Assembly (NCBI GenBank): GCA_030280995.1
Contig: JASXTE010000004.1
Span: forward strand, 38,868,797-38,932,796
DNA from: Hemileia vastatrix
Lineage: Eukaryota; Basidiomycota; Pucciniomycetes; Pucciniales; Zaghouaniaceae
DNA: 64,000 bases
Direction: 5' to 3'
Part shown: piece by piece, positions 6,826 to 64,000 of the stretch
How the letters are laid out: the number at the start of each line of letters is the position of its first letter
Position numbering within the stretch: the first letter of the stretch is position 1
The notes under the pieces: model-generated
Told to the model about the DNA's origin: nothing
The model's input: only the letters and a program-made list of their open reading frames with translations
Database searches by the model: none
Made by a program: the position numbers and the translations under genes

Positions 6826-6830
6826 GTAAA

Positions 6831-15171: not shown

Positions 15172-15329
15172 TGACTAGTTTGTTTTAGCTCCTTCAAACT
15201 TCAACTGTTCATATATATTTGTACATAAAGTTTTACAAAAATTTCCTGTATTTCTGTACTCAATCCATCTTTAGTTGAATTTTTGTATTTTAATGTTAAA
15301 AATTCTTTTTTAAATAAAATTTTCAAGTC

Positions 15330-17060: not shown

Positions 17061-17334
17061 AATGAATTCTCTTTTTTTAATTTTCTTTTATTCTGCTGAC
17101 TTCAATCATTATTATTATTATTATTGATATTTTGGATGATGATTGAAATGAAGTTGAATTTGAAAATGATGATAAAGATGATAAAGAGGATGATGATAGA
17201 GAAGTAAGAGGTGATTCTGATGAAATAGACATTTTTTTCTCTAAACAAAAAAAATTTGTTTCAAAAACCAAAAAAATAAATTGGAAAAAAATAAAACTCA
17301 CAAAATTTAGTTTGTTTATTTAACCTTAAAGTAT

Positions 17335-27252: not shown

Positions 27253-28750
27253 TGTCAGGCTGAGATCAAGTACAGAGACATGAATAGCTTGATTAGTCAT
27301 TTTTATAGAAGATTTTAATATATCAGTATGAATTGAGTTGTCCAAATCCAATTAATTATTAAAGTATAATTCAATATTATGGCCTCAGTAATTTAATCTC
27401 TCTTATTATAAATGGTATACAGTTTATAAATGGTAGAAAAATAAATATAGTGATTTAAAAGAATATTTAAAAGACTTTAGAAGTACTAATGAATATGTAT
27501 TGTAATTGATATGTTATATGTTTAAAAGGTGAAGTAAAAGAATGTAAAATAAAAGCCCAAAAACCTCCTCCTTATATATCCAAAAATTCCCCCAGTGTTC
27601 CCCCTTGTCTTTCCAGTCCTTTCCATGGCCAATGATGCCTCATAATAGAAATTCCACATTCCCAACAAACTAAGGACTATCCCATACCAAAATAAGAATC
27701 ATATCACATGCCAAAATACAAGAATAACATGGGTTAGTCCATAAAAATTACATAATAATCCAAAAAGAGTGTATCTATAGTAAAATCCTTAAATTAAAAG
27801 ACTAAATAAGGGAATAAAAGGACCTATAAGTAACTTCTAATTAAGGGAGATAAACAGTAATAATTAATAAATTAATTATAACAATTTTAACCATGAAATT
27901 CCCATTAAAAATAACTAATATAGCATAAGAACCCATTGAGAAACCCAAAAGAAGATGTGAAATGTGGGGTGACTGAATGCAGACTCTTGGAAGGCGCTTT
28001 CATGGGTAAGTCCTCAACCAAATAGGCAAATTTAAGTGTGTTTGTCAAATCTGGGTGCTAATCTTGAGTTTATTGATGAAATTAGTGCATATAATGAGGT
28101 TAATGCACTAATAATGAAATTAGGACACTTAATAAGTCCCTCTCACTTATTTTAGTGTGTTTATACATATAGAGCATACACTGAGGGGTAATTTTAGTTT
28201 GAAATTACTAAACTTCTTAATAATGAAGCTATGCATGTGGGATAGATGCACGCAGAATAAGGCCAGTACATATAAGCCAATTCTAGCATAAAAACCATCA
28301 ATTTTTAGAAGTTGTATTATTGGACATTTAAGCAGCCAAATAAATTGTGCTAAACGAGGCAAATTGATCTGTCAAAGAGCAATTTTAATATTATTAAATT
28401 TATAGCCCATATATTCAGCTTTTAATTGATTTAAGGCGCATTTATTAATTATTTCACTATAATAATGAAAATAACAGCTTTAATACCACTTATGAATTAT
28501 TTAACCTTATTTATAAGGTACTTAAGATTAACACAACATATTCCAAATTGATAATCAGTATGTAAGACCTATAAAAGGTGTATATATGCATGTATTTAAG
28601 GTATTCTAATGTCATATATTGTATTAAATGACTTATTTCACTTATGAATTTATATTGTATGCCCTTACTTAGTGTTACCATAAGTAATAAATGTATTTAG
28701 CATACTCTATATGCTTATTTTACTCAATCCTGGGAATATCCAGGCTGACA
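27253..28750. repeat. Solo LTR, family A, TSD CACTT
   Basis: The 1498-bp unit runs TGTCAGGCTGAG to CCAGGCTGACA, flanked by CACTT on both sides (27248-27252, 28751-28755). No internal region, so LTR recombination removed the element body. Aligns along its length with 11844-13332 and 45232-46722. Confidence 0.92.
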
Positions 28751-29713
28751 CACTTTCTCATTTTTTTTTAATTTAATTGCTGATTGAAATGTCTTTTTTT
28801 GTCTTTTTTTTTCTTTCTTTTATCATTTTTTTTTAATAACTGATTGATCTGTTCTTTTTTCTTTAATCCCCTTTTTCTAGGTTCTTCACCTTTTTTATTC
28901 TTGATTTACTGACTTTTTGGTTATTTTTAGGTTTTTTCCCTTTTTTTGGAATTTTTATTTTTGCTAAACTGCTTTGGAATAATTCAGAAACCATTTGGAA
29001 ATATTTTCCAATTATTTAACACTTTTTGATAGGTTTTTTTGGGAAATATTTGGTTTTTTCTTCTGCTTAAACAATTTTGGAAATGTTTCCAAGCATTTCC
29101 AAGTGACTTTCAGGTGTTTTTTTTTTAGCTGTTTTGGGTCCTTTTTTTTACTAAAACCATTTGGAACCATCACTTTTTTGGGGACTTTTGGGGAATGTTA
29201 GGGACACTTTTATAAGAACTTTTGGGACACCTTTTTGCGAACCTTTGGGGAACTTTTTTTGGACCTTTTTGGCATGTTTCTGGGAATTTTTGGGGACTTT
29301 TTTTTGGAGAATTTTGGAAGCTTTTTTTAAAATTTTATGTGACTTCTTGAACTATTTCAGGTATTTTTTATCCATTTTTATTAATTTTTATTTTTATTGA
29401 TTTTCTTTACATTTTTTAAACAAAAATGACTGAAAATCTACAGTTGGTCAACCAGATTCATAAGGTAAGAAACAAAGGTAATGTGAAAAATAAAAAATTA
29501 GGTAGCCAAAAAATAATGGAATAAATATAGGTTGTAAAGTTTTATTTTTATTTCATGAATTAAAAGTTAACAAGTCATATATGATACTCTACTTACTTGA
29601 ATTAATGAGCCATCAGTCCATGTGTCATATTACGGTGTGGTGTTCCAAAGCTTGGTAGGCCTTTGGAATGCATATTTGGAGGTATTTGGTGTGTAGGGTA
29701 TATTTGGGGTTAT
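28751..29713. other. T- and G-rich, strongly strand-asymmetric noncoding stretch
   Basis: Roughly 28756-29400 is built of T runs broken by GGGG or GGAA, for example GGGGACTTTTGGGGAATG. Open frames here are low-complexity Phe/Trp-rich artefacts. At 29425 an ATGACTGAAAATC... frame of 13 codons ends at a GTAAG donor-like site; its identity is unknown. Confidence 0.5.
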
Positions 29714-30444
29714 TGTCAGCCAGGCTACTAAACTTACACAGGAAATAATAAATTATTTACTAGAGTAGAGATATGCCTTTACCTCTCATTTAATGAGTTA
29801 TACTTACTTTATAAATTCCTTATACAATTTTAAATAATTAATAGGTAAAAATAAGTGAAGAAATAATTCTATTGTTTCCTCATATTTTTTTATTCTGTGA
29901 CAGCATCCTCATGAAATCTTAAGAGAAAACTAAAAATACTAAATATTAAATCAAATATTTTTATTTTTATTTTTACTTTGAAATTTGAAGAAAATTAAAA
30001 TAAATCAAATAAAATGGACATATACAGATAAATACTGTATATGGGTACATTCTTTATAGAAAAACTTTAAATATTTAAAATTTCTAATTGTGGAATTGTT
30101 CTTTCTCTGATACTCATGTATATATAATCTTGATTGTGTAGTTTCTCTCCTTTTTGCCTATATAAGGCCTCTAAATCTGGCTGTTTTCATTCATTACATT
30201 CTTACTTTACAATTTTATTATATGCACACTAATCACATATATTACTACTGTTACTACCTTAGTATTTACATTTTCATACTTCTAAGCTTTTAAAGTAATA
30301 ATAATCATAACTCTTTACCTTTTTATTGAGTATTTAATTATAAAGATAAAAAATATGTACCTCTTTTGAAATCTTGAGTTTTCCCCACCTTTCATTGCCA
30401 TTGGACTGCCATAAAATCTTCTAGACCAAAAGCACCCCTTGACA
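29714..30444 (+). repeat. Left LTR of the plus-strand Gypsy (family B)
   Basis: 731 bp. Contains TATATAAGGCCTC near 30160, a plausible TATA box, about 25 bases before the likely transcript start. A partial copy lies at 20308-21183. Confidence 0.92.
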
Positions 30445-30869
30445 ACTCAGGGCCTTTCCAAATAGTTTTCAAACCATTTTTATCTTGATTCTGGAGACCA
30501 AGGGACCATTGACTCCAACACCTATAGCAATTTTTGGAAGAATGACAAATTTCAAAGGCACATGACTAACATTTTTTTCCCCGACTGGGATTCGAGCCTC
30601 ACCCCAAATTTAAGGTTTATATAAGCGTAATTGTCCTATATATTTGTAGTTACTATAGTGGTTATTATCTGTAGGTCTCAATCTGCACATTTCATTATAT
30701 ATGTATATCTTTTTACTCATCACTCTGTAGTTGGAATTAAATTGCTCAAATTACAGGGGGAGTTTTCACGTATATAATATTTGTTTTCCTAGTTGACCAA
30801 GATAGAGCAACATTTTTCTTATTCCTAGAAGTAATATAATTTAATTTATTTAAGTAAAAAAATTATATT

Positions 30870-31560
30870 ATTTATTTATTTCAGTTGAAAAACTGTCCTG
30901 ATAATTATAATATTATTTTATTATTTCAGTTGACAATTAGTCCTGGTAATTAAAATAAGAACAATATATAAATTAATTATTTAATTAAAAATTATATTAA
31001 TAAATTATTTCAGTTTAAATCTAGCCTTGGTAATTATGAAATATACAATGTATAAATTGGTTATTTGGTTAAGAAATGTTATTAATTGTTTCAGTTGATT
31101 TTCTTCCTGATAATTAATATATTAATTTTTTATTTAAGTTGATTTTCTCCTGGTAATAAATAATATCAATATCTCAGTAAAAAATTTATTAAAAATTGTA
31201 TTAATTAATTACTTCAGTTGATTTTAATTCTGATAAATAGATATATTTTCATTGTTTCAGTTGTTAAGTAGTCCTTGAAATTGATAATAAATTAATTATT
31301 TCAGTTGATTTCAGTCCTTATAATTGATACATTTTCATTATTTCAGTTGATTAGTAATCCTGGAAATTGATAATAAATTAATTATTTCAGTTGATTTTAG
31401 TCCTGATAAATGATGCATTTTCATTATTTCAGTTGATTAGTAATCCTGGCAATTGATAATAAATTAATTATTTCAGTTGATTTTTGGTCATGATAATTGA
31501 TATATTCTCATTATTTCAGTTGATTAGTAGTCCTGGTAATTTATAATAAACTTTAAATAT
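30870..31560 (+). repeat. TTTCAGTTGA tandem repeats in the Gypsy leader
   Basis: About twelve copies of a TTTCAGTTGA-like core occur between the LTR and gag. The last four to six form an ~84-bp higher-order unit (ATTTCAGTTGATTAG... ATTTCAGTTGATTTT...). Each unit carries a T-rich tract followed by CAG, which looks like a 3' splice site. Another CCTTTCCTCAG lies just before the gag ATG at 31654. Confidence 0.8.
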
Positions 31561-31653
31561 TTTTATTTTATCTCTTATTTTTTTTAAAAAAAAGAATAAT
31601 AACTGACAAAATATTAATATATTTTCCTTTCCTCAGCTCAAGTTATACAAAAA

Positions 31654-37723: not shown

Positions 37724-38453
37724 TGTCAGCCAGGTTACTAAACTTACACAGTAAATAATTAATTATTTAATAGAGTAGAGATATGCCTTTAACTCTAATT
37801 TAATGAGTTATACTTACTTTATAAATTACTTATACAATTTTAACTAATTAATATGTAAAAATAAGTAAAGATATAATTCTATTGTTTCCTCATATTTTTT
37901 ATTCTGTGACAGCATCCTCATGACAGCTGAAGAGAAAACTAAAAATATTAAATATTAAATCAAATATTTTTATTTTTATTTTTACTTTGAAATTTGCAGA
38001 AAATTAAAATAAATAAAATAAAATGGAAATATACATATAAATACTGTATATGGGTACATTATTTATAGAACAACTTTAATGATTTGAAATGTCTAATTGT
38101 GGAATTGTTCTTTCTCTGATACTCATGTATATAGAATTTTGATTCTGTAGTTTCTTCCCTTTTTGCCTATATAAGGCCTCTTAATCTGGCTGTTTTCATT
38201 CATTCCATTCTTACTTTACAATTTTATTATATACACACTAATCACATATATTACTACTGTTACTACCTTAGTATTTACATTTGCATACTTCTAAGCTTTT
38301 AAAGTAATAATACTCATAATTCTTTACCTTTTTATTGAGTATTAAATTATAAATATAAAAAATATATACCTCTTTTGTAATCTTGAGTTTTCCCCACCTT
38401 TCATTGCCATTGGACTGCCATAAAATCTTCTATACCAAAAGCACCCCTAGACA
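37724..38453 (+). repeat. Right LTR of the plus-strand Gypsy (family B)
   Basis: 730 bp, closely similar to the left LTR; preceded by the purine tract TAGAGTGAGGGAT. Confidence 0.92.
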
Positions 38454-39440
38454 GTTATGATTTTTTTACTGGTTTTTTTTTAGGTTTTAGATGTTTAGTT
38501 GTGTTTTTGTAGGCTTAAGCTAGCATCTCTTATTATGTCTCAGCTTAATTTCCTTTCTTTTCTCATCATTTTGGTATTTGTTATGTGTGATTAGCTTGTT
38601 TCTACATGTATTTACTGTTGTTTTGTTGTTTTAGAGGGTATTTTGGGTGTTTAAGGGCCTAAAAGCGGCTTCCCACCTGCTTCTATGCAGCCTGCCCTCC
38701 TGCACACGTGGAAGCCTCTAGAGGAACTTTTTTGCATGTAGAAAGGTGGAAGAGTTGGATTTTGCTGGGAAAAGGCCAGTGTGGTGTGTGTGTGAGATAG
38801 TTAAGCAAGTTTAAGGATATTCTAGTTTATCATCAACCATCTGTTATACCTGGAATCTCTGTGCTTCCCTCTTTTGTGTGTTTGTGGAATCTTTTGGCTG
38901 GGTTGCAAAAAGGTTAGATCATACTTCACCTCAACTCTTTTCACTGTTTTCTCTTGTATAGTCTTGCAAGCTATATCAAGTATTATTGCTGTCTCTGGTG
39001 TGGCTTTGCAGCCTACATCAAGTATCATTGCTTTCTCTGGTGTGTAAATCAGTCTACATTTCAGTTCTTTGGTCTGGTAATCTGTCTTGTCACTACTTTC
39101 TTTGCTGATCAAGCAGTCAAGTGTCTTGGAAAGCAGTTTTAGCAAACAAGACTCAATTTACTTTAGCAGTTAAATTTAACTTTCTTTTTCTAAAGGGACA
39201 GGGGATTTTCTCTCTAGTGTTTCTAAAACTCCCTTTGTCATGGCCTATAGCTAGAACTATAGTATTGTCTACAACGGCAATCATGGGGACATTATTTTTC
39301 CTCATGAGGTTCATTTATGCACTTGTGTTTTATTTCATTGACATTGGTCACAGATGATTTTCACTCACATTTTAAATTGAAATGCCATTAATTATTGTTT
39401 TTTAATTATCTTATATGACTTTTTTACATTTTAGTTTATG
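38454..39440. other. Noncoding; contains a repeat shared with 47440-47750
   Basis: No supported gene. From about 38950 to 39290 it is a diverged relative of 47440-47750. Shared segments include GTCAAG near a GCTG/GTC stretch and CCTATAGCTAG(A/T)ACTATAG(T/G)ATTGTCTACAA. The family is not recognised. Within the first part, two short direct repeats (GTCTCTGGTGTG near 38990 and TTCTCTGGTGTG near 39030) are seen. Confidence 0.5.
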
Positions 39441-45231: not shown

Positions 45232-46722
45232 TGTCAGGATGAGTTCAAGTACAGAGAAGAAAATAGCTTAGTTAGTCAGTTGTGTAGAAGATTTTAATGG
45301 TCCAATATGAATAATGTAGTAAAAATCCAATTAGTAGTAAAATATAATTCAATATAAGGGTCTCAGTAATTTAATCTCACTTATGATAAATGGTAAACAG
45401 TTTACAGTTGGTAGAAAAGTAGATATAATAATTCACACACTATTCAAAGACTTTTAATAGTACTAATGAAATGTATTGTAATTTCATTGGCTGTATGTGT
45501 TTATTGGAATGATAAAGAATGTAGAAAATAAGACCAGAAACCCCCTACTTTTATACCCAATTATTCCCCAATGTTTTCCCCTGGCTTTACCAATCCTATA
45601 CACAGCCAATTATGCCTCAATCTAGCAAGTACCCATATTCATCAACCTAATTAGCAACCAATAGCACAAATAGAATAATATCACATGCTAAAATCCTGAA
45701 ATAATAGGGATAATCTATCAATATAAAAGAATAATCCAAAAAGAGGTTATATGCATGTAATACCTTACAAAAAAAGCCTAAAAAAGGAAAGAATATTACT
45801 AAATATAACACATAATTAAGGGGGATTAACAGTAGAAATGAAAGGACTAATTACTCTGAATCAATTTGTGAAATCCCCATCTGAATATGACCAATATTTC
45901 CTGAGAAACCATTTAGAAACCCAAAATAAGATGTGAAATGTGGGGTAGCTGAATAAAGACTCTTGGAAGGTGCTTGAATGGGTGAATACTTGACTAAATA
46001 GGATATTTTAAGCATGGTAGTGAATTTTAGGTGCCAGTCTTGTGGTTATTAATGAAGTTAGTGCATATAATGAGGTCAATGCACTAATAATGAAATTAGG
46101 ACATTAAATAAGCACCTGTTTCTTATTTTAGTGTTTCCCCATAGTGGGTGTAAAATGTGGGTTAATTATAGTGTGAAATTTCTAACTTTGCTAAAAATGA
46201 AGCTATTCATGTGGGAAAAATGCAGGCATTATGTGGCAAGTACACAGAATCCAATTCTGGCATAAAAAACAACAATTTTAAAAGTATTATTTTTATGAAT
46301 TTTAGTAGTCAAATAAATAGTTCTAATTAAGAAAACTTGATCTGTCAAGGTGAATTTTCAATATTATTAAATTTATAGCACATATATTCAACTTTTAAGT
46401 GATTTAAAGTGCATTTCTTATTTTTTCCTTAAAACAATGAAAACAACAGCTTTAAATATACTTAAAAGCTATGTAGCCTTATTTTTAAGGCTCTTAAGAT
46501 TACCCTAGCATATTTTAACTTAATATTAAGTACATAATACCCATAAAAGGATGATATATGCATGTATATAAGGTATTATAATGGCATATTTTGTATTTAA
46601 TCATTAATTTCACTTATGTATACATCTTGTATACCTTTATTTATTGTTCCCATGTGTACTAAATGTGTTTAAAACAATTTATGAGAAAGTTTTACTCAGT
46701 CCTGGGAATATCCAGGCTGACA
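45232..46722. repeat. Solo LTR, family A, no clear TSD
   Basis: Starts TGTCAGGATGAG and ends CCAGGCTGACA. Flanks CAGTT and AAGTG do not match well, so the duplication has decayed or the LTR is left from a rearrangement. Confidence 0.85.
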
Positions 46723-46744
46723 AAGTGCTTGGAAATAAGTTCTC

Positions 46745-51200: not shown

Positions 51201-51856
51201 GTCTTCTTACCTTGAACCAAAAATAATGAGTTTGAGTATTATTGGACCGGAAAGTAAGTTCTTCCTGGAGCTATAAGTAAATTGCTTTTTGCAGATACCA
51301 CATTACTCCTACCTGGTAGAAAGGCAGATTTTTTAAACTGATGTTTTTTAGAAAGCCCATTATTTTTAGCAGGTAATGTATTTTTCTTATTCTCTAGTGT
51401 TTGATTTTTTATTGAAATCAAACATATTAATTTTAGATATAACATGGAATGTTCCTCTCCTTATGTTTTATCATGCACTCATTTTGGAGTTTTTTATCGT
51501 ACCTAAAATATTTTCCTTTTTGTACTAACTTTATTATTAATAATATACTAAGCAAGTCCAACCTATTCTGGAGTTAAAACTTGGCTTTCTCCTCTCTTTA
51601 ATATTTTTTTTGTACTTACTCAGTCTTTTATCATACCTAAAAGCTACCAAAAAAAACTTCCCACAACAATTTGAATCCACCTTTCCTCCTCAAAGTCAAA
51701 CTTCAAAGACTATAATCAAAATGTCTACCCTGAAAATCTGTTCCCCTTGAAAAAATTACTTATTGACATAATAGGGGGTATCAATGTTCAGGGATCCGCA
51801 ATTAGGGATCAGGAATTTTTTTTCCCGGGATCAGACATTATTAATTGCGGAAGATT

Positions 51857-51888
51857 CTTATCCACTAGCCCCAGGGCTAGTGGATAAG
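51857..51888. repeat. Perfect subterminal palindrome in PIF copy C
   Basis: 15-bp arms, 2-base loop, identical to 20665-20696. In copy B the surrounding sequence is continuous without it, pointing to a small foldback insertion or a precise loss. Confidence 0.85.
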
Positions 51889-52152
51889 AAATCCACAATA
51901 ATGCATTATCCCGCCTCTTATACCCCAATTTCCATTCCTAATTCCTGATCCCAAACTCATCTCATCCATGATGGATTTTTAAGAAAGTCACATGACTTAT
52001 AATTGCTGATGCCATCCTTAAGTATTTCCTCACTCTATGCTACTTAATTTTGGTGGCGAAAACTTAAGTTTTTTTTCTATCTACACACCCCAACTGCACA
52101 TTTGGCAGTGAATTCCCACTTCCCTCATCAAATAACCCTTCCACCGGCAACA

Positions 52153-52785
52153 ATGAAACACCTCTCTACTAGGAAGCTACTTCACTCAACAATGAATGCT
52201 ATTACTTTTCTTTTAGTTCTTTACTATAAATCTGACTCTGATTTGGAAGATGCTTTAGCTTATATGTGTTTTCTTTCCAAAAAGCGTTACATCATCACCA
52301 GGGGGCCAAATCTTTATCATGATCCCCAATATGATCTGGCCTCCATTCTCAACATTCCTCATTTAAACTTCACACAACTTTTTAGAACTTCTCCCGATTC
52401 TTTCTTCAAACTTTATCAACTCATCTCCGATCATCCTATCTTCCATAACAATTCTCATAACAAACAGTGTAATCCTGCCATCCAACTTGCTGTTGCTCTA
52501 TGTCGCTTTGGCTCAAATGGAAATGGTGCTGCCGTAAGACGTTTGGATAATCTCTTTAACATAGGATATGGTACCGTGATATTATACACCAAGCGCTGTA
52601 TGATTGCTATCCTTTCCCTCAAGTCTCAAACTCTTGCTTGGCCAACTCCAGAACAGCGACTTGAATCCTCTCAAGTAATGCAAGCTGAAGGTTTCCCTGG
52701 CTGTGTAGGTTTTGTTGATGGCACAACCATCCCTTTGAGTCAAAAGCCTGCAATTACTCTCCAACATTTCTCTTCACCCTTTTAA
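52153..52785 (+). pseudogene. PIF/Harbinger transposase, N-terminal half only
   Basis: Starts MKHLSTRKLL (the same Met as copy B; an upstream in-frame Met at 52102 is possible). The frame stays open through CRFGSNGNGAAVRRLDNLFN and FPGCVGFVDGTTIPLSQKPA, which carries the first catalytic Asp. Directly after QKPA the sequence jumps to the noncoding segment downstream of the transposase, so the second Asp and the Glu are gone. The protein ends at TAA 52783-52785 after a short unrelated tail. No catalysis is possible. A product of about 210 residues would keep the N-terminal DNA-binding part and could act as a repressor; that is speculation. Confidence 0.88.
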
Positions 52786-52794
52786 TTTTTTATT

Positions 52795-54031
52795 TTTATG
52801 TTTTCATACTTTCCAAATGTCCTCTTTGTGTACTTTAATCACTTGGTTTTGTATTTTGGTTTGTTGCATATTCATTTTTTTTTTTGAATTTATGGTGAAT
52901 ATCTTTTTTTTGGATGGCTCATTGGTTTTCTTTCACCAGCTCAACATGAAATCGCATATTTTCTGAAATTGCATATTTTGTCAGTGATTTTTTTTTTCAT
53001 TCATCCCTCATATCCTTTTCCTATTCTCCTCCAACATCCCTCAAACAATTTGGTTTCATTCATTTTGTCATCTCATCTCTCCAGGTAAGTCATTTTATTC
53101 TTTTTTTTTGATTTTTTGATTACTAATTATAATTTTTTTTGTTTTTTTCTGTTTATTTTATTTTTTTTATCTAAATTTTTTTTGTAAGTGGTTATTTTGG
53201 ATTTCAATGGTATAATTAACCTTTTTTTTCTCTCCCTCTTTACTTTATTTTTTAGCTCTATCACCCTACTCTTCATCCCTCCTTGGCATTGTCATTATCC
53301 CCCCTTTCCCTTATTTCACTTTTTTTTGGCTCCATTTCATTGAAACACATACATTGCACATTCTTTATGCATTTCACTTACTCCATATTCAATTTCCCCA
53401 CAATTCCAACATCAATCTTTCTCACTCAATTTTTCCTACTTTTCAATCAAGGTAAGTTTCATCTCCTTTTTTTCATGCCTATATGATATCTCATTCCTTT
53501 TATGAAAACTTCATACTTAAATATATGTATGACTGAACTTATAAAACTCCTTTTGATCTCATCTTCATTACCACTTTTCAAGTTTTTGTAAAATTTTGAA
53601 AATCAGACTCGGAATTAGGGTTAGGTTTATTCAAATCTAATGTTCTTTTTACTGAAGATTCTCCTGAAGGCTACCTTTCATTTCCTGCAAACAGATTTGA
53701 ATTTGATTCAGTGGTTGCTGAGATATTGACCGTTAAAGTTGAGCCTTTTTTTTCCCGATTTAAATTTTTATTTCATTTTTTTATGTAACAAATTAGGGTT
53801 AGGTTTATTTAAATCGCATGTCCTTTAACTGAAGATTCTACTAAAGCATATCTTTCATTTTCCACAAACAGGTTTGAATTAGGTTCAGTGGTTGCTGAGA
53901 TTTTGACCTTTGAAGTTGAGCCTTTTTTCCAAATTTCACTTGTCTTATTTCACATTTTTATATTGCATATTTAGAGGATAAGGATTCTGAAACTCTTATA
54001 TGATTATTATTTAGGCATTTTAATTATATAG
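52795..54031 (+). other. Noncoding leader of the dioxygenase gene in PIF copy C
   Basis: No supported ORF. Two strong donor-like sites, CTCTCCAG/GTAAGT at about 53083-53096 and AATCAAG/GTAAGT near 53451, are conserved in copy B; the first also occurs in 1-1555. They suggest noncoding 5' exons of the dioxygenase transcript. The open frame at 53283-53486 is similar in both copies but has no ATG and ends across the second donor, so it is not called as a gene. Confidence 0.5.
53600..53930. repeat. Two direct repeats upstream of the dioxygenase, copy C
   Basis: Two units of the ATTAGGGTTAGGTTTAT...GTGGTTGCTGAGAT repeat, equivalent to 17335-17860 in copy B, which has three. TTAGGG here is part of this repeat and not a telomere. 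Confidence 0.65.
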
Positions 54032-54660
54032 GCATCTATTTGTTGGTCAAGAATATCACTAAAGCTCAAAAAGATGAAGATTTTCGCTTATGGGACACTC
54101 TACCTTCCTTTGACTCTTTTCTTGCTTTTCAACTCAACAAGCTCTGTAATAAAGCATTTGAAAAAAATCATGAACTTGCAACCAAAGTTGGAATACTGAA
54201 TTGGTGTGACTCCGAATTGGAAGATATCAGCCACGAATATCTTTTATTTTCTAATGTTATTATCACTCATTCTGGATTCCACAATAGGATTCATATCGAT
54301 AGGAATGATGCCAATTTTCTTACTTTTGGAATATTCTCATATATCAATCCAATAACTGGCCACCCAATACCATCTCCAGCTAAAATCAAAGGACATGGTT
54401 TATATTTTCCAGACCACTGGTGCATCATTGATTTTGGTTTGGGAAATGGTATCATCAAAACTATTTGGAATTCTTCTAAGGATAATCATCAAACGACCAA
54501 AGCTCCTCCTGGTTTGGAATCCTGTCAAGATTTCACTCATTTCGGTTGCTCATTTCAAATCAGTAATAAGTTGATACAAAGAATCAATAAGGTAAAGAAA
54601 GAAGGTAAAGTTATTCGATTTAAAAAAACTTTATCTAGATCCAAAAAGTATGGGGATTAG
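54032..54660 (+). pseudogene. Tet/JBP-like 2OG-Fe(II) dioxygenase, catalytic exon of PIF copy C (5' exon missing)
   Basis: A clean open frame of about 209 codons starts at the AG acceptor at 54030-54031 and ends TAG at 54660. HID at 54292-54300 within NRIHIDRNDANFLTFGIFS provides the H-x-D iron ligands. DNHQTTKAPP (His at 54487) is the likely distal ligand, and HFGCSFQISNKLIQ is the closing strand. The catalytic half lacks stops, unlike copy B. No ATG begins the frame and the upstream coding exon present in copy B (17060-16716) is deleted, so a complete protein is not expected. It lies between the transposase and the Myb gene. Confidence 0.8.
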
Positions 54661-54956
54661 AGTTGTCATCGAAAATTTTATATTTTTTCATAAATTTTTA
54701 ATAAATATTTTTTATATATCAATTTTCTCAAATAATGTGATGAGCCATCGACCTTGTGTTGTATAACAGGTAATCATGATAACATTTATTTTTTTCATGG
54801 GGTTCCTCTTTCCTATACCTGTAGAAAGTCCCAAACTTATGTTTCTCGACTTGGTCTGCATTTTGGCTTGAGGGATTGTCATTACTTTAAACTAGGGAAA
54901 TTGATATATATTAGATATTTATTTAATAATTTATGTAATTATATTAAATTTAGATG

Positions 54957-55385
54957 ACTTCCACCCCTTACTTCAATAAAATGCAGGGGGGGGTATTGCC
55001 AAATTTTCAAATCTGACATGTGAAATTGATGACTTAGAAAAATTTTGGTGATACCCACCCCTTGCTTCAATAAAATGCAGGGGAGAGTATTGCCAATTTT
55101 TTTAAACAGATATAGAATTTTTTTGACTTGTAAATATTTTTGTGATACCCGTCCCTTACTTCAATAAAATCCATGGGGGGTTGTGCCAAAATTTTTTATA
55201 AGACTTGTGAAATTCTTGACATGTAAGAATTTTTAGGATTCCGGTAAAATGCAGGGGGTAGTAAAGCCAAATTTTCATATAAAACTTTCAAGATTCATGA
55301 CATGAAAGAATTTTCGTGATACCCACCCCTTACTTCAAAAAAATCCAGGGGTGGGGGATTGTCAAATTTTCAAAGGAGACTTGAA
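54957..55385. repeat. ~90-bp minisatellite between convergent genes of PIF copy C
   Basis: Four to five units, each with GATACCCACCCCTTACTTC, AATAAAATGCAGGGG and GCCAAATTTTC...GACTTGT. AATAAA in each unit may act as a polyadenylation signal for either gene. Confidence 0.85.
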
Positions 55386-55508
55386 AATTTTATTTAAAAA
55401 AAGAATATTTAACATTAAAATACGATATTTCAAGAAATACAGAAAATAATTGTAAAATTTATGTACAAATAAATATGAACACATGAAGTGTGAAAGAAAT
55501 AAAAGAAA

Positions 55509-56906
55509 CTAGTCAACAAAAAATTTCATTAAACGTTCTATTTCTTCAACAGATTTGTTTGCTTTAATGCATTCGATCAAGAAATCTTTCTTTTTAGAAC
55601 TTTCTTGGAGATCATGCTTATACTTCATCTGTTCCATTAAGTTTTGATGCTCGAGTGTTTTTTCCTTATTTTTGGATTTTTCAATACTAAGAGTTAACTC
55701 AAACTTCTTCTCCTCCAAATCTTGGGCCCTACCATCCTTCTGTAAAGAGAGCTCAAACTTCTTCTCCTCCAAATCTTGGATCCGATCATCCTTCCGTAAG
55801 GAGAGCTCATACTTCCTCTCTTCCAAATCTTGTACTCTGTCATCCCTCCTTAAAGAGAGCTCGTATTTCTTCTTTTCAAAGCTCAGTGTCTCTTTAGCAA
55901 TTTCCACTTGTTCTAGAGTGAGAATAAAAATTAACATAAAGTAGAAGAAAAGCAGAGTAAAGTAATAAGAGGTATGATATCACTTACCAGCATCACGTTT
56001 CTCTAAAAACTGTTCCATCAAAGAAAAAGGTGTTTGTGATGAAGTATCACTTTTTCGTCTTCTTTGGGAGAGGAAATTTAGACTAGTTGAAGCCCTTCTC
56101 TTTTTGTTCAACGTAGCATTTTCCTCCTCATCATTGTCACTAGCTTCAGACTCAGTTGATTGAGGATCCTGGGTTTGTTCATCAGCCTTTTAAGAAATAA
56201 GAAAAAGATAAGTAAATAAAAAAATAGAATTGATAAGATAAAAGAAACAGACCTGAGTTAGATTTGGTTGGGTTAAATCACCTATAGGATCTACAGAAAA
56301 GCTATTTAGATATGTCTCATTCAAATGAGGGGAGGCTTGAGTGGAGGAAGAGGATGGGAAAAGATTTGCTTCGACATCATGTTCAGAGATAGGATCTTCT
56401 CCATCCAACATGTTTACAGGATTAACATCGGCTCGCTCTCCAAAAATTGCATCCATCTCTTTAAAGTAAGGACATAAAGAGTCAAGTTTATTGTCTATGG
56501 ATTTTATACCCTTAGTTATATCAGTGTCAGTAACCCCAAAACCAGTGGAAGATGAAAGAGCCTTTGCCTTCTTGTATTTTGCTCGATAATGCTTGAAGCG
56601 TTCAGACATCTGTTTAGGCAAAAGATCAATCCTTCCCTTGGTCTTATTGCGTAATTCATTTGCCATTAGAAGATAGCCATTAACTTTTGATGTGGGGGGC
56701 CGTCCTACTTTAGTGGCATACTCAGTACCAAAACAAGAATCATAGTTAGATTTGGTTTTCAGCCAGTTGATAAGAATGAGATGTTCATCTTTTTTTAATT
56801 GAACAGTCTTTGATTTCTTGGCTGAGCGGGGGAAAGAGGAAGTAGTGGGAATTGAAGAACAACTGGGTGATGGCTGCCTTTGAGAAGATCTAGGATGACA
56901 AGGCAT
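55509..56906 (-). CDS. Myb/SANT and coiled-coil accessory protein of PIF copy C, intact (3 exons, 418 aa)
   Basis: Exons 56906-56253, 56186-55988 and 55912-55509 join in frame through two GT-AG introns of 66 and 75 nt. The start is the ATG giving MPCHPRSSQ, aligned with copy B. Residues about 35-110 form a Myb/SANT-like domain (LKKDEHLILINWLKTKSN, MSERFKHYRAKYKKAK). The middle is acidic and Ser-rich, and exon 2 has basic clusters (NKKRRAS, SQRRRKSD) that look like nuclear localisation signals. Exon 3 is a coiled coil with four tandem 18-residue units of the form KKYELSLRRDDRVQDLEE; copy B has three. Myb-like partners in PIF/Harbinger bind transposon ends and bring the transposase into the nucleus. 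This is the only intact element gene in the window. Confidence 0.88.
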
Positions 56907-57257
56907 GTTATTATAAATGAAGATGAAAAGGAGCAGAAACAAGCAGATGAGATAGCGAGATGAAAAGGAGAAGAATCAAATAGATGAAATGGGGAGAAAT
57001 TCTGAACGGATAGAATGAACAGGATGGGATGAGAATGGAAGTGCGCAGCAAGGTAGAAGGCTGGGATATCCAGAAAGTTGTCAAAGATGTGGTTATCAAA
57101 TATTGAGGATAAAAATGTCAGATAAGAGGTGAACATTGACACGTAAAGTGTCTAATAACCCAATTATTAGCAAAAATAATTGCGGAAGATAATTGGGGTA
57201 TGCAGATTATTTTCCGCAATTAATTTAATTGTGGATCGGTCAACATTGATACCCCCT

Positions 57258-57790
57258 AATATTATCCTCATGGAGATAATGCTCCAATTGATATCTCAAA
57301 ATTGTTTTCAAAATTTTACAAACTTTTCAACCTTCATAAGATAGAGGACTTGCTTGCCACATTACCAGGCTTTAATTCCATTAAGAGTTTGTGGAAGATC
57401 TATAAGTGCATGTTCCAAGAATTTTAATAACCAAAAACAAAATATGACATGCACAAATTATCATTGAATGCTTGGAATGATCTTCCATATTATACCCTTG
57501 AAGGCTTGCTTTTGTCAATGCACAGATGAACTTGGGCTGTTGTGGATGCTGCTTGGGGTCATAGCTGTTTGCAGATGAAAAAGATGATTTTTTTTAAATT
57601 GCACTATTTTTTATGCTCTTTAGGCTATCAAATGGTGGTTTTGTCACCATTCACTAATTATTGGTTCTTTAGTTGGAAAAGAGGGTCTGGGAAAAGTTAA
57701 AATGAAAAAATAAATATTTGTCCTATAGTTTTACTTAGTGTAAGTTGTAACATTTGATAGTTCCACATGGTTGCAATGAGAAACAGTAAA
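57258..57790 (+). pseudogene. Decayed coding stretch, unknown family, interrupted by PIF copy C
   Basis: Just right of the element the frame reads PHGDNAPIDISKLFSKFYKL, then LHKIEDLLATLPGFNSIKSL, then stops TAA TAA near 57423. It resumes as KYDMHKLSLNAWNDLPYY and TLEGLLLSMH with further stops. Amino-acid composition looks like real protein, not AT-rich noise. The left flank of the element (before 51773) could be its 5' part. I do not recognise the family. Confidence 0.45.
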
Positions 57791-58619
57791 TTTTTTGATC
57801 ACATAATGAAAAGCTTCGGGGGTGACAAGGATACACTTCTGGGAGTGATACATACATGCTCTTATAACATTTTTTTTATTTAGTGATGTAAGATGTAGTT
57901 TGGGCAGACACAGAGTATAGATTCTTCAAATTTGAAAATTATTTTGTTTTGAGGGCAAGCATATGATAGTTATAATATTGGAAAAGCTAATGAATAACTT
58001 TTTTTTTATTCTGAAAATGGAATTTACATCAAATCTAAATGTACATCAGTTCCAAATTAACAACTAAGTAGAAATTTTATTGAGATTGCTGAAAACGAGT
58101 TGCTTCTTTACATCCATAGCTTCACCCAGTCGCAGAGTAATAGAATAACAAGAAACGACATAAACTTACTGAAATTCACGGTTAAGTATATAATAAGTCA
58201 TACTTTATCATTCTCTAGGTTTGCCTCAAAAAATATCATACTATGAGATTGGGATGAAGAAAAGCAAAATGGTAATAAAATAAAATAAAATAAAAATTTT
58301 ATGACAAAAATCTCGTTTTATCTAGTAGAGATATCATCAATATGAAGTCTTGTTTTGTTGATTATTCTTTTATGAGATAGTTTTTTTCATAAAGATATAT
58401 TATTTTTAAAATTTCGGATATTCATTTTAGTTTTGAAAAAAATTTCGAAAAGGATTTGCAATCAAATTTTTAGGAACATGGGAGGACATTTGAACAAGCA
58501 TAAATCCTCGAGAATCTTAAATTGCCGGAACATTGGATAATGTTAGTCTATAAACCGGTAAACTTTTTTAACTGACCAAAATTCTTACTTTGTGTACAAT
58601 CTTTTAAACCTTGATTTAT
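57791..58619. other. Intergenic, no supported feature
   Basis: No gene recognised. This stretch includes the 3' flank of the secreted-protein gene. Confidence 0.4.
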
Positions 58620-59039
58620 TTACCACCCACGTAAATATACATGTGTAGGAGCTTCAGGACTCTTGATTGGCGGAGGATGGGATTCCCTAGTACCTTCACC
58701 AGCCACATTGAAAGGCTCCGCCCTCTTATGGAGCAATACCAATTTTTCTTGACGCCGTGCAACTTGACCCTTTTTAGGAACCTTGACCATGTCCATAGAT
58801 CGCCTCTCTAACAACCTGGGCAAAGACGATAAATAACGTCTGTGAAACGTTATCATGGATTCAGGCCCATTTGCTTGGGCTGGAGAATTGCTAGATAATG
58901 GAATCGACCCTAGAGCACGTTTGTGAACCGTTGTCTGCGCATTATCCACCGTTTGTAAGTTTTGTTTATAGGGTAAGACAGAACTTAAGATGGTGAGGCA
59001 CATGAGCAACAAAGAAAATAATAATGTAGTCGAGGCCAT
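58620..59039 (-). CDS. Small secreted protein with several dibasic (Kex2-type) sites, 139 aa
   Basis: Single open frame beginning MASTTLLFSLLLMCLTILSS, a typical signal peptide, with a likely cut around residues 20-26. The mature part has no Cys. Dibasic sites occur at KR40-41, RR67-68, RR79-80, KK89-90, RR95-96 and KR105-106; three are preceded by His (HKR, HRR, HKR). The spacing would release peptides of about 10-26 residues if a Kex2-type protease cuts in the Golgi. The C-terminus is Pro-rich, ending YLRGW. No family is recognised. It could be a candidate effector or a processed signalling peptide. A T-run of about 23 bases lies just upstream (59048 onward). It is a single-exon prediction with no homology support, so a chance ORF cannot be excluded. 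Confidence 0.6.
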   Translation of the reverse strand: MASTTLLFSLLLMCLTILSSVLPYKQNLQTVDNAQTTVHKRALGSIPLSSNSPAQANGPESMITFHRRYLSSLPRLLERRSMDMVKVPKKGQVARRQEKLVLLHKRAEPFNVAGEGTRESHPPPIKSPEAPTHVYLRGW

Positions 59040-61012
59040 TATGATGATTTTTTTTTTTTTTTTTTTTTTGGATTGTCAATTTACAGATTAAATAATAAGA
59101 ACTGAGTTAGGTGTGTATATATGGCACTTTAATACTGCTTGACCAGTAAAACTATGGAAGAGAGCCCATCATTTTATGTGCTGACAAAAACAGGTGGACA
59201 TGGTTTAAGGTTAACTGGATTGAATGCAAAGCCTAGCGCATGTTTCAGGTTCATTCAACCCGCACAGAATATTTGCTTGAAATGTGCAGAGCGTTTCTAG
59301 TCGCTTGATTGAAATTCATTTTTCTCAATTTTATTATGTATGAACCAATTTATTAAAAAATTTTTAAAATTGATGCGAATCCTTGGTCGTAAAGAAAATC
59401 TGGTTATATACATTAACTTATTGCCTAATGAAGAATTTGTCCGGATACCAGTTCTATGTGGTTCATATGAAGTGGGGAAGGCTAGGAAGGAATGTCACAA
59501 GGACGAGCTGTAACTAATATTATTAGACAATAACTGGCAGACTTGGTTTGTTTTCTTCAATAGATTTTATCCTTTCGCAGTTTTAAATTAGTGTGTTCTG
59601 TCACAAGAAGCTGACTTACAACTTGAAACTTGCCCTGGATTTCACCGCCAACATTTTATGTGCCGCAGTTGACATTAAACTTCTTGGAAGCTTGGCCATC
59701 GTCAATCATGTAAACTTGCATCTTACACATTTGTTGTACACATGCACATACAGCTAATTCTGGAAAGCTTGCAGTTGTCTTGCCTCTAATCCCCCGCCAA
59801 CGACATAGATCAGCTGATCTAAACTCATGATTTTGGCGGGGGATGGGATGCAAGACAGCCGCAAGCTTTCTTCCAGGATTAGCTGTATACATCTGACCCG
59901 TTCACTAAAATCTTTGTGGAAAGTTTCATGGCACGTTACCAATTTTTATTGATCGGCACCTTTAGCCGTGTCCGATCAGGGGTTTTATTTTATTATTCTT
60001 TCAAACACTTCATTCTTTTATGTATGCACGTACAAAAGGTCACTTGGCTTAATTGTAATGGTGAGCCGCCTCATTCTATTACATACCAAGGAAATATAGG
60101 GCGCATTCAACTTAGTGTCGGTCCAAGTAAAATCTAGGAGCTATCTTTATGAGTGTGTAGCATGAGCAGGCGATGACTTTGCTATAGCTTACTAAGTGGG
60201 ATGTCCTTCCTCTGAAGCATGTTATAACGAAGCCTGTACCACATCGGTCAATCTCTCTTTTTCCCAGAAAAAGGACGTATCATAAAAATCGGTAATGTGA
60301 GCAGATGTAATGACATCCCGTCTGAGAAAGATCGGAAATAAGCATTGTACTACTTGCTACCTCATACAATTATGTCTAGTGTTGAATTTCAACTAGCCAA
60401 GGGACAGCCTTATTTTTTTATGTTCATCTAACAGAGAGAAGGATTGAAATTAACGTGAAAACTGATTAGATGGTGACTTAGTCCATCATTTTCCTGCCTT
60501 ATACCCGGCGTCCAATGTCACCCTGATGGTCTGGCGAGAGAAATTCAAAACATCACACCTCCCCTGTCGACTGCATATCGTCTGACGAAACCTTAAACTT
60601 CCCAATCTCTTTTTTTTTCTCTTATGGACTAGCCAAAGGCAATTCTCATAATTCTCAGATCATGTAGCTCATTGCGCTTGCATTATCATATTTCTTGTTT
60701 CCGATCCGCTATTTTTTCACTCTTTTTTTCTCCACCCCTACGCTTCAATATCAAATAATATAACCAGAAAAAATTAATCATAACTCCGATTATATGCACC
60801 CACATATTTAATTTGAATCATTTTTCTTTTATAATTTCATGTAATCTCATCCTAAGAGGGCAGAAGAAAGACTACAAAAAAAACTAGGTAGACCCGAATT
60901 CCAAGTAATAGACAGACAAGTGTAAAATTGAAAAGTTAGCAATAAGTTTTGAGCCTAATAGAGATGAGGAATAAAGGACAATACATCGAGGAGTCAGTTT
61001 GACTCTATCAAA
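59040..61012. other. Intergenic; contains one TA-flanked MITE
   Basis: Base composition is less AT-rich than in the transposon blocks. Short frames at 59656-59942 lie across the MITE and are not genes. No family recognised elsewhere. Confidence 0.4.
59751..59885. repeat. 135-bp TA-flanked MITE, copy 1
   Basis: Long inverted repeat: left CAGCTAATTCTGGAAAGCTT, right (inverted) CAGCTAATCCTGGAAGAAAG, with GCTTGC, TGTCTTGC and CCCCCGCCAA in both arms. TA on both sides. Nearly the whole element can fold into a hairpin. Confidence 0.85.
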
Positions 61013-61700
61013 TGTACAGTGCCCTGAAATATGTCATCGTCACCCTCTTTTTTTGCACTACTCTCACAAAACTGATTTGATTTTATTCAAATTTTGTTAC
61101 AGCTATTTGGGAAAAGCTTGCTGTGTTTTTGCCTTCTACTTCCCGCCAAAAACATGAGTTTAAACCGCTTTTTGGGGGGGGATGAGGGGCAAAAAAAGAG
61201 CAAGGTTTTCCCAATTAGCTGTACATGGTCAAGAGAGACCTTGAGATTCATAATATAAAATATATAAAAAATGTTCAGTAGTTTTTTCACATTTGAAAAA
61301 TTTGTCAGACCTCCAGTCTCTGGATGAAGAAGTAAGGATAAGAGAGATATAGGATTAGTACCAGTAAATAGCCAGAGAAAACCAGAAGGCAATCACGAAA
61401 AGAAAAAGAGGAAAATCACAAAAATTGATGAAGAAAAAAGGAAAAAAAAGTTTGAGTTAAATGGCAGGGGGTCTCCATAGGCAACTTCATTGTGCGGGTT
61501 TAGCAGAGTTTTGGTATATCTCGTAAGATAAAATTTGATGCCACAGATAGGTGAGTTGATTAGATAAACGTTCTATGTGTATTTTGATAGTTATTGAGGT
61601 GCTTCTTTTGCAGTCGGTGGTGTTATTTGGACGAAAATGGATGGTATCGAGACGATGGTGGTTGTAAGAAGGAAAAGTGAGCTAGCTGTATGCATATTGT
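61013..61700 (+). pseudogene. Duplicated unknown locus, less AT-rich copy with MITE inserted
   Basis: Counterpart of 46745-47307. It contains a GT-AG intron (61551-61613, 63 nt) followed by an exon encoding RWCYLDENGWYRDDGGCKKEK then TGA. The exon before reads SRKIKFDATD up to GTGAGT. The 122-bp MITE at 61100-61221 interrupts it. Upstream frames are not open over a useful length, so either several small exons exist or the gene is dead. Product unknown. Confidence 0.5.
61100..61221. repeat. 122-bp TA-flanked MITE, copy 2, with empty site in window
   Basis: CAGCTATTTGGGAAAAGCTT on the left pairs with the inverted right end CAGCTAATTGGGAAAACC. TA on both sides. The homologous locus at 47223-47224 has a single TA here, showing the precise insertion. 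Confidence 0.9.
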
Positions 61701-61904
61701 GGTTGTTTGTCGGCAATAAAAATTTTAAGTGGTGACGAGAATATGTTGCCGGGCGCTATACATATTATGGTAAAATAATTATGTGAGAACGAGGGATGGG
61801 GAGAAAGTATGAAAAGGAGAGAGATAAGTGGTTCCTAGTTCAACCAATACTGCTGATGTTTTTTTTTTCCTTCAGAATCACCCAACAAGGGGCACGAAGG
61901 AGAT

Positions 61905-62774
61905 TTAACAAATAAGTAAACTAAGTGCATTTATAAGGAGAAGTGCAAACGGGAGAACTGCCTTGAACCAAAACAGATAATAGTTGAGAGGGCAGTGGCC
62001 AGAGTGGCATTGCGTGGAAGCGGTGGTATGGGCTCGGGGGAGAGTGGTGAGTTGCTTAAACATCAACAGGGGATTGAATTTACATATGAGTTTTTTGAGG
62101 GTATTCTTGCTGGGGTAAGAGAGCAGTTGAGATCTTGCATGAGACTTGAGGAAGGAGTTAAGGGCAGCAATCGATGGAGGAGGGGAAAAAGTGAGAGTGG
62201 AGGAAGCAGTCAGGGGCAAACAATAGGAACCATTAGCCAAACTGTCAACCAGCTCGTTCCCTAGGATGCCAGAATGATCTTCACACCACTGGAGGACGAG
62301 CTGAATTGAGGGGTTGACTGTTTGAATAAGGGATATGGTTCACAGGGGGGAAAAAGTGTGCACTAGACGTCTAGTGCTTTTATTGGCTTCATGTGGCAAT
62401 TTTGTGCGTGATTCTGGCAGTGACTCTGTCTGAGTCTGGTGCATCCCCTTCATGAGACAAAGGGAGGGGTTGGGTTCAGCCAGAGTTACACCACAGTTTA
62501 GGCAAGAATTACGGACTGAGTTTGACTGGGAACCAAAAAAACTACTAGATGTCTGGTCCACTGGTTTTTCCCCCTGTGGTTGGGGTAATAAGAGTATAGA
62601 AGACAAAAATTGGAAGTGGAAGGTGGGGTAGCTGAGAGTGATTTGATTGCCGCTTGATTGTCCACAAACAAGGTAAGTGTGTTTGACGTATGGATGAAGT
62701 GGGTTGGTAAGAAAGAGATGGAGACCTAAAAGAATACCCGTCAACTCAGTTTCAAACACTGGCCCCACATGCAA
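61905..62774 (-). pseudogene. LINE-type RNase H domain, decayed
   Basis: The minus-strand frame has VFETELTGILLGLHLF. A second frame holds LFVDNQAAIKSL with the catalytic Asp, so one frameshift lies near 62670. A long insert-like Ser-rich segment follows, then IQLVLQWCEDHSGILGNELVDSLANGSY, the W-x-x-x-H-x-G-I-x-G-N-E-x-x-D motif of retroelement RNase H. An in-frame TGA lies near 62340. No reverse transcriptase was recognised upstream. Such RNase H domains occur at the C-terminus of fungal non-LTR retrotransposons. Confidence 0.7.
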
Positions 62775-62796
62775 TTTTACATTTAATATTCCATGT

Positions 62797-62897
62797 CACC
62801 CAAACGTTTCACATGTCGGTTGCGATTTCCTTCATTTGTCACCAAAGAGGATGAAAAATGACCAAAATTGCAACCGACAGATGAAACGTTGGGGTGG
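62797..62897. repeat. 101-bp imperfect hairpin
   Basis: CACCCAAACGTTTCACATGT and CGGTTGCGATTT pair with the right arm (inverted CACCCCAACGTTTCATCTGT, CGGTTGCAATTT). Possibly a tiny MITE; different from the CAGCTAA family. Confidence 0.75.
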
Positions 62898-64000
62898 CGT
62901 AGAGCATAAAACATCGTTGAATTTCTTCTGGTGTGAGTAAAGAAGGGGGTCTCCTAAACGGGCAAAAAAGGGAAGTGGAAGACTCTGGTGAAGCGCTGTT
63001 CCTGGTGTGCCGTCTTGTGATCTAAATCCACCAGCAAAAATGAAGTGTGGGTTGTTAAAGGCTAAAGAGGGGAGATTTTCACAGAGGGACAGCATAAATT
63101 TTTATCTTGCCTTCCAACGTGGAATTATCGAGGACAGGAAAAGTTTCTTCGAAAGAGAAAGCTGGAAGAAAATCATGTGTAAGAATAGAATGTGAAATAT
63201 AAATTATGATATTTTGGCGGTGCTAGGACAAGGTAGAAATAATATGCAGAATAATTTTGAATATTCATTTGTTTTGTTGCATCACTTTGGTGCATATCAG
63301 GCTGAATGCAAAAAGTAAATATGCAATATAAACTGGCATATTGCATGAATACCAGTCACAAGCAACAAATTTCTATTTCACTCATTCATTTTTACTTTTG
63401 GTATATAACGTGGGCATGAAATACAGCTAATCCTGGAAAGCTTGCGGTTGTCTCGCATCTCATTCCCCGCCAAAATTATGAGTTCAGTTCAGAGGAGTTA
63501 TGCTTTTGGAAGGAGATAATAGGCAAGACAACCTCTAGCTGTGCCAGGGTCTTTTACTAATATTGTTAGTATCACTTACTTTTATGCAGTGATTTTCATT
63601 AGATTGGCATATCAATTTGATGGCAAGTAATTCTATGGCTAATTTATATAGAAAAAAAAAAGCACTTATACACTTGACTGAAAGTAATACTTGTAAAGGA
63701 GTTATTGCAAGTATATTTTGGAATTCAATCAGTTATACCCACTATTACTCAAAAATAATACTTTACAATAAAGTCTAAGAGCATCCATGTACAGTGGCCG
63801 GACAGAAATTTTCACCCGGTGCATGCATAATCCAGGTTATCGGCCTTTTTTTTTTCTTCCTAACACCACCACCATCGCTATTCACGTTTAAAAATCATAC
63901 TAATTTTATGATTTACCTTTCACATTTTGGTAATTTGTCCTTTCTTTCTCTTTTCTTGCCAAACTGACTCATTAATCTCTTATCCAATATTTACCTTTTT
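62898..64000. other. Mostly noncoding; one MITE at 63424-63541
   Basis: A minus-strand open frame at 62832-63095 reads NPHFIFAGGFRSQDGTPG and could belong to the decayed retroelement just downstream, but I do not recognise it. Right of 63550 nothing is seen. Confidence 0.4.
63424..63541. repeat. 118-bp TA-flanked MITE, copy 3
   Basis: Left CAGCTAATCCTGGAAAGCTT, right end inverted CAGCTAGAGGTTGTCTTGCC. Left flank TA, right flank TG (decayed). Confidence 0.8.

Follow-up and report, generated by a model that had tools for sequence, protein, structure and literature searches.

A Tet/JBP-like dioxygenase gene in a PIF/Harbinger transposon family of Hemileia vastatrix, and the derivatives that lost its first exon

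Why should a DNA transposon of a rust fungus carry a gene for a Tet/JBP-like dioxygenase, and does the element need it? The question is raised by element C, a PIF/Harbinger element of 5,485 bp (positions 51773-57257, no strand assigned) in a window of 64,000 nucleotides from Hemileia vastatrix (assembly GCA_030280995.1, contig JASXTE010000004.1, positions 38,868,797 to 38,932,796), and by element B, an older copy of 6,872 bp that lies on the opposite strand at 13436-20307. The original prediction, made from the letters of the window, held that both copies carry the same three genes in the same order (a DDE transposase, a Tet-like oxygenase and a Myb/coiled-coil gene) and that the oxygenase may act on modified bases of the element itself, either to avoid silencing or to prepare excision. 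We found that the second exon of the Tet gene was under purifying selection between B and C in the past, and that C-type derivatives without the first exon, and later without half the transposase, kept multiplying. The explanation that we favour, at a probability of about 60%, is that C is a twice-deleted derivative of a family in which the Tet gene was selected, slowed silencing and was dispensable in cis, Tet-less lineages being served in trans.

The Tet-like gene and its partner genes in B and C

In C, what remains of the Tet-like 2-oxoglutarate (2OG)-Fe(II) oxygenase gene is exon 2 (54032-54660, plus strand), which is open and is preceded by a putative retained 3' splice site AG (54030-54031, plus strand), exon 1 and most of the intron having been deleted just upstream. 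The surrounding frame (54004-54660, plus strand) runs for 218 codons with zero methionines, and its sole Pfam match at an E-value of up to 1 is PF20515 (E = 1.8e-27), so that the predicted family assignment was borne out by the profile search. On the minus strand of B, exon 2 (16028-16657) matches the same family (E = 1.7e-27) and has one +1 frameshift near its start; it follows a probable 58-bp intron (16658-16715, minus strand; GTATGT...CATAG) and exon 1 (16716-17232, minus strand), which has in-frame stops and whose last 95 codons are open and end in GWRPGFVKGYSL-G. This first exon lies in the roughly 775 bp that stand just upstream of exon 2 in B and are missing in C. Joined, with X at the frameshift, the exons of B match positions 8-211 of the 211 in the profile with 125 bits, compared with 97 bits for exon 2 alone from either copy. 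The full domain with its HxD...H motif is thus found in the joined exons of B, and C alone covers positions 46-211, with about a fifth of the profile missing. The HxD motif (HID) and the distal histidine named in the original prediction are invariant in an alignment of seven sequences. Because exon 1 is deleted, the frame holds no methionine and no ATG follows the retained acceptor, we conclude that the Tet gene of C is 5'-truncated. No Tet exon 1 was found within loci L001-L028 and L059, and none of the 150 best C-like exon-2 matches has one of the 150 best exon-1 matches within 2 kb upstream.

The transposase gene of C is likewise reduced to its 5' part (52153-52751, plus strand), which includes the motif FVDGTT; the D of this motif is probably the first catalytic D, a role taken from the family (the DDE catalytic residues were assigned by eye). 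The remainder is deleted at about 52751, and C is without the roughly 627 bp that carry the second catalytic D and the E. Copies of 6.1 kb keep that stretch, and one of them, L059, has an open transposase frame of 454 codons that matches PF13359 over positions 1-158 of 158 (E = 6.5e-24) and holds D, D and E as in a DDE_Tnp_4-type transposase. Since the 6.1-kb copies, the open L059 frame included, hold what C is missing, the gene of C is a 5' remnant. In B, the catalytic core (18883-19329, minus strand) matches PF13359 (DDE_Tnp_4) with E = 8.5e-19 and reads FIAFHSGCPG, without the extra T, a one-base insertion within the 627-bp stretch, that is common to all six 6.1-kb copies among the 20 loci described below; L059, a seventh such copy, is also without it.

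The third gene of C lies on the minus strand and would comprise a first exon (56253-56906), with its end placed at a donor GT, a probable middle coding segment (55983-56189), with its frame and predicted splicing, and a 3' exon (55509-55919; TLEQVEIAKETL...) that encodes a coiled coil as judged by eye. The N-terminal part is Myb/SANT-like at a sub-threshold level: the match to PF13837 scores 18.7 bits (E = 0.0023) against a Pfam cut-off of 27 bits, and the earlier Myb call therefore falls short. A database of 5.8 billion proteins gave one relative of the third protein (P0002, 316 amino acids, 40%), with its parts in the same order, and a Pfam search of P0002 gave no Myb match. The AlphaFold model of the third protein, built from three sequences, is too poor to use (predicted local distance difference test, pLDDT, 47.6), and a profile search of solved structures returned no Myb, only weak unrelated chains. 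The same protein database gave one relative of the Tet protein (P0001, 40%), too few for a phylogeny, and sequence searches of solved structures matched no chain for Tet and none for the transposase.

The order of the genes, DDE transposase, Tet and opposite-strand third gene, is therefore the same in B and C, as predicted. However, both copies hold the three as remnants. C is without the second half of the transposase and without Tet exon 1, and these two deletions rule out intact genes in C; B is heavily decayed, with in-frame stops, the frameshift in Tet exon 2 and an observed/expected CpG ratio (CpG o/e) of 0.06.

Between B and C, Tet exon 2 shows a synonymous divergence (dS) of 0.49 and a non-synonymous divergence (dN) of 0.10, and its dN/dS of 0.21 lies below all of the 300 neutral simulations run per gene with the mutation spectrum measured in these copies (minimum 0.38), and on this ground a Tet gene that was functionless throughout was rejected. 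The third gene gave 0.35 in the same comparison (simulated minimum 0.52) and its coiled coil, which was outside the simulated set, 0.23. Between B and L059, part 1 of the DDE gene gave 0.22 (minimum 0.46) and part 2 gave 0.395 (minimum 0.39; 1% point 0.42). Selection kept Tet about as strongly as the transposase. Among the young copies, the corresponding ratio for polymorphisms (pN/pS) is 0.47 for Tet, 0.46 for the third gene (three of the 18 copies have stops in it) and 1.54 for DDE part 1; since similarity to the Tet protein was what brought the copies into the sample, the Tet value says nothing for selection at present.

The identity of B and C is uneven, at 94% in the stretch from DDE to Tet, 85% in Tet exon 2 and 87% in the stretch behind exon 2, which suggests that both copies are mosaics of different ancestry. 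Among 30 DDE loci with 1.5-kb flanks, five (B included) stay alike into the Tet-proximal region, and the other 25 part from it around positions 1,740-2,140 as counted in L059, where different sequence takes over; the flanks of DDE loci L029-L058 are too short to judge Tet exon 1. Internal parts seem to have passed between several of the sub-lineages. Thirteen of the loci with a switched spacer were viewed for reading frames, and most show repeated proline-rich translations.

Target duplications, copy classes and CpG decay

The ends and AAT duplications proposed for the two copies proved exact. The boundaries of C read A/GGGGGTATC...GATACCCCC/T and its inverted ends A/GGGGGTATCAATGTTCAGGGATC ... 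GATCGGTCAACATTGATACCCCC/T, with the duplication at 51770-51772 on the left and 57258-57260 on the right. B has like ends (A/GGGGGTATC to GATACCCCC/T), except that one of them is GAGGGTATC, and AAT at 13433-13435 and 20308-20310. Adjoining B, a miniature element of 460 bp (20581-21040) has the same ends and AAT duplications. Together with 18 genomic loci, these three make up a set of 21 complete copies in which both ends were found. All 21 have terminal inverted repeats and a 3-bp duplication, the features of PIF/Harbinger elements: the outer 3 bp are identical at the two ends in every copy (AAT in 12, ATT in nine), and the variable base W matches between the sides in all of them. At locus L012 one family copy is nested in another with only ATT doubled, and the uninterrupted site in C is GCATATTTAGAGG. 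Because the 21 copies agree and the empty site provided by L012 lacks the extra 3 bp, the duplication is a 3-bp AWT, and the same two observations rule out a 2-bp TA duplication for the family of C and B. AWT is mistakable for TA because the sites read ..WTA/GGGGG...CCCCC/TAW... The usual target duplication of canonical PIF/Harbinger elements has the consensus TWA.

Genome-wide searches (747.61 Mb, 791 contigs) with diagnostic patterns, allowing up to 3 mismatches and with reversed-pattern controls of 0 each, found 3,334 DDE core marks, 143 DDE-deletion junctions of the 5.5-kb class, 1,485 Tet exon-1 core marks, some of which may sit in other Tet-bearing elements, and at least 1,023 exon-1-less Tet junctions, an undercount because the junction pattern was derived from C, which differs from most of the matches listed. 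Since exon-1-less derivatives reached at least 1,023 copies, Tet was not needed in cis for amplification. For a closer comparison with C we used 20 loci of 8 kb chosen among the best matches to its Tet protein: ten hold copies of 5.5-5.8 kb and six hold copies of 6.1 kb, and of the remaining four, L017, L018 and L025 are incomplete and L022 has a further deletion. The 6.1-kb copy at L059 has its open transposase frame together with an exon-1-less Tet. Beside the copy of C's family at L010, positions 7798-8001 hold part of another Tet-like gene, only distantly related (46% identity), which probably comes from another Tet-bearing element.

Tet marks recur behind the transposase. On contigs C2, C18 and C19, at least 8 of 67 exact DDE marks are followed at a distance of 2.8-3.4 kb by an exon-1 mark on their own strand, against none in the upstream control and none in the opposite-strand control. 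For exon-1-less marks, which follow at 1.9 kb, the figure is at least 3 of the 67, and the two controls gave 2 and 0. Furthermore, six of the 150 best DDE matches have one of the 150 best exon-1 matches 2.2-2.9 kb downstream; three of these pairs are stop-free in both matched stretches, one of them being B, the source of both queries. Exon-1 matches are without a stop in the matched stretch in 36 of the best 62, B (as query source) included. The exon-2 frame has no stop in 114 of the 150 best matches, a sample that favours open frames. The idea of Tet as a gene of a PIF/Harbinger element has accordingly survived in part: it is an old resident gene that recurs behind the transposase and was under purifying selection, but many copies elsewhere in the genome are without Tet exon 1, the copy in C is 5'-truncated, and such a gene is not new, as it already figures in Kojima (2025; PMC12730594).

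The copies also carry a record of methylation-like decay. Across an alignment of 18 copies (B, L017, L018, L022 and L025 left out), C-to-T changes per site and copy amount to 97/828 at TCG (0.117), 109/1547 at other CpG (0.0705) and 130/31650 at other cytosines (0.0041), an excess over other cytosines of 29-fold for TCG and 17-fold for other CpG. CpG o/e is 0.33-0.40 in C and five other copies, compared with the 0.06 of B. An in-frame stop occurs in 36 of the 150 best Tet matches, and in 32 of these it is TGA only; in L006 and L007, the two that were examined, the TGA arose from CGA in a TCG context. In the third gene, four copies have five stop codons between them, of which one is a change at a CpG, and this argues against a purely CpG-driven decay. 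TCG hypermutation is cited for Pucciniomycotina by Kojima (2025; PMC12730594), in the text available. Because it strikes the present copies, and because B is nearly CpG-free, these copies are not protected in the long term. Outside CpG, divergence is 0.56% among 11 copies of 5.5 kb (55 pairs) and 1.19% among seven copies of 6.1 kb (21 pairs); given the lower value, the transposase-deleted 5.5-kb class seems to be the younger one and to have spread last.

Other repeats surround these elements in the window. Inverted matches of 89-100% between positions 1-424 and 52802-53228 mark a third large copy of the family of C and B, on the minus strand and partial because the window edge cuts it. A dispersed repeat, about 90-94% identical, occurs directly beside B at 20307-20427 and again at 30033-30153 and 38042-38162, and further at 29886-30447 and 37895-38456. 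A longer repeat, 60-86% identical, has five occurrences (2337-3973, 12205-13334, 27617-28752 and 45594-46724), two of which, at 2337/3170, stand close together in tandem with a spacing of 833 bp. An 86-bp unit stands four times in tandem at 31236-31580, its units 66-100% alike. CpG o/e is 0.55 at 57300-64000, compared with 0.12 at 1-13400 and 0.15 at 21100-51700, which suggests that the former region is less methylated and perhaps genic.

How the Tet gene may have been used and lost

The favoured explanation runs as follows. C would belong to a very abundant PIF/Harbinger (PHIS) family and would have become non-autonomous through two deletions. The ancestral element of the family probably encoded a Tet/JBP-like dioxygenase in two exons beside its DDE transposase, and a Myb-like/coiled-coil protein on the opposite strand, the exons being joined as predicted above. 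Movement was most likely cut-and-paste by the transposase, with the third protein as DNA-binding partner, by analogy with the biology of Harbinger. The Tet enzyme most likely worked by oxidising the 5-methylcytosine of element DNA, which would have slowed methylation-based silencing, and Tet-less lineages were presumably served in trans by other copies. Self-demethylation to escape silencing, the first of the two roles suggested in the original prediction, may be said to fit what can be read from the sequences; the second, a preparation of excision, is not supported, and neither is the functionality of C's own Tet frame.

Several points weigh against this explanation. The step in trans rests on the stop-free exon-1 matches and not on a proven active enzyme, and the predicted structure of the Tet frame (seven sequences) is too poor for the shape of a domain to be read (pLDDT 37.7). 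DDE part 2, at 0.395, does not fall below its simulated minimum of 0.39 but stands only at the edge. The choice of the 20 loci by their Tet protein is a sampling that favours open Tet frames. On the three contigs, at least 11 of 67 exact DDE marks have a Tet mark 1-6 kb downstream, and an exact DDE mark lies 1-6 kb upstream of at least 8 of 41 exon-1 marks and at least 3 of 53 exon-1-less marks listed; it may be that many DDE copies have no Tet and that part of the Tet marks sit in other elements.

A possible but doubtful alternative is that Tet was useful only in the past and that the family has since been freed of the need for it, for example by a weaker methylation defence, so that the remnant in C is a passenger fragment. 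The absence of exon 1 before C-like exon 2 (none of the 150 best matches has one of the 150 best exon-1 matches before it, and L001-L028 and L059 hold none), the lack of a methionine in C's remaining frame and the amplification that continued after exon-1 loss are all as this account would have it. However, the strong CpG and TCG decay in these very copies indicates a host mechanism that was recently active, and a stop-free exon-2 frame is the rule (114 of the 150 best matches, in the sample that favours such frames).

Somewhat less likely, in our view, is that Tet is a trans-acting common good: full copies make the enzyme, derivatives use both products of others, and there are two layers of non-autonomy, one in moving and one in escaping silencing. 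If true, the second layer would stand beside the classical loss of transposase. Here the coexistence of at least 1,023 exon-1-less marks with at least 1,485 exon-1 marks (the latter may include other elements) is in favour, as are the copy L059, which is without exon 1 yet has its transposase frame open, the selection on Tet between B and C, and the failure of any of the 150 best C-like exon-2 matches to have a best-150 exon-1 match upstream. Yet an active enzyme made by exon-1 copies, and its action on other copies, are unproven steps, and with strong CpG decay in 18 exon-1-less copies any help would not have lasted. An extended version is a shade less probable again: Tet-less 'silencing-escape cheaters' would have outgrown the makers of a common good, host TCG hypermutation would destroy both, and the TA duplication ascribed to the published PHISTA elements (discussed below) would be a misread 3-bp AWT.

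That Tet is a chance capture without function in the element is improbable and was already disfavoured: copies without Tet exon 1 thrive and the miniature element shares the ends of the family, but the dN/dS of 0.21 lies below every one of 300 neutral simulations and the DDE mark is repeatedly followed, at 1.9-3.4 kb, by a Tet mark. The least probable account is that exon 2 alone was reused, with a new ATG start or a new upstream exon, as a short protein of changed role. The first exon-2 codon is ATG in 24 of the 100 junction matches listed (ATA in 72, ATC in four), and the frame is open in 114 of the 150 best matches. However, among 20 distinct C-like copies (repeats with the same first 200 bases dropped) 18 have ATA at this codon, another has ATC, and the single copy with ATG is the older nested host copy at L012, which has two stops; moreover, exon 2 leaves about a fifth of PF20515 uncovered.

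Why fungal DNA transposons repeatedly gain demethylase genes is an open question, and a review of June 2026 states, in the part available, that such enzymes are still to be functionally characterised (PMC13297926). The thousands of marks described here, part with exon 1 and part truncated, with CpG decay as a record of methylation, form a natural experiment that bears on three possibilities: that the enzyme protects its own copy, that it protects every copy, or that it protects no copy at all. They also carry two warnings: Tet frames in such elements, that of C included, may be truncated genes, and the length of the duplication in the PHISTA-like clade needs comparison with empty sites.

Comparison with known Tet-bearing transposons

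Tet-bearing KDZ (Kyakuja/Dileera/Zisupton) transposons of basidiomycetes were reportedly described by Iyer et al. in 2014; they resemble the family of C and B in that a transposon carries the TET/JBP gene, but they belong to another transposase superfamily, and one Dileera element reportedly has an 8-bp duplication. In Coprinopsis cinerea, CcTET is a fungal TET-family dioxygenase tied to DNA transposons, and it oxidises 5-methylcytosine; as far as the available texts go, it is of the AG type (PMC12730594, PMC13297926). The Tet protein of C and B matched no chain of a solved structure. With Nuwa and canonical PIF/Harbinger elements, as presented in the available text of Kojima (2025; PMC12730594), the family shares a 3-bp duplication, a DDE_Tnp_4 transposase and a possible Myb-like partner, but unlike them it carries Tet and duplicates AWT, not TWA.

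The closest likeness is to the TET+ PHISTA elements (PU type) of rusts. Kojima (2025; PMC12730594) describes, in the text available, seven lineages of DNA transposons that carry Tet in rusts. The Harbinger lineage accounts for 15 of these families, spread over six rust species, and the role put forward there is to escape silencing by methylation; Hemileia has 0 occurrences in the main text, and our literature search gave no Tet-bearing Harbinger element in Hemileia among the matches listed. As in PHISTA, a Harbinger DDE transposase, a Tet/JBP gene and a third protein occur together in several families of a Pucciniales host. PHISTA, as that text has it, differs in a 2-bp TA duplication, which the family of C and B does not show, having a 3-bp AWT with TA within the flank, and in a third protein without a Myb/SANT domain, in contrast to the weak sub-threshold Myb/SANT-like match found here (PMC12730594). 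The TA of PHISTA may be a misread AWT. The Tet-carrying Harbinger family of Hemileia thus appears, from its sequence, to be a further member or a close sister of the published rust PHISTA, with a different target duplication. In this family selection first maintained the Tet gene, and lineages in which exon 1 was later lost went on to multiply.

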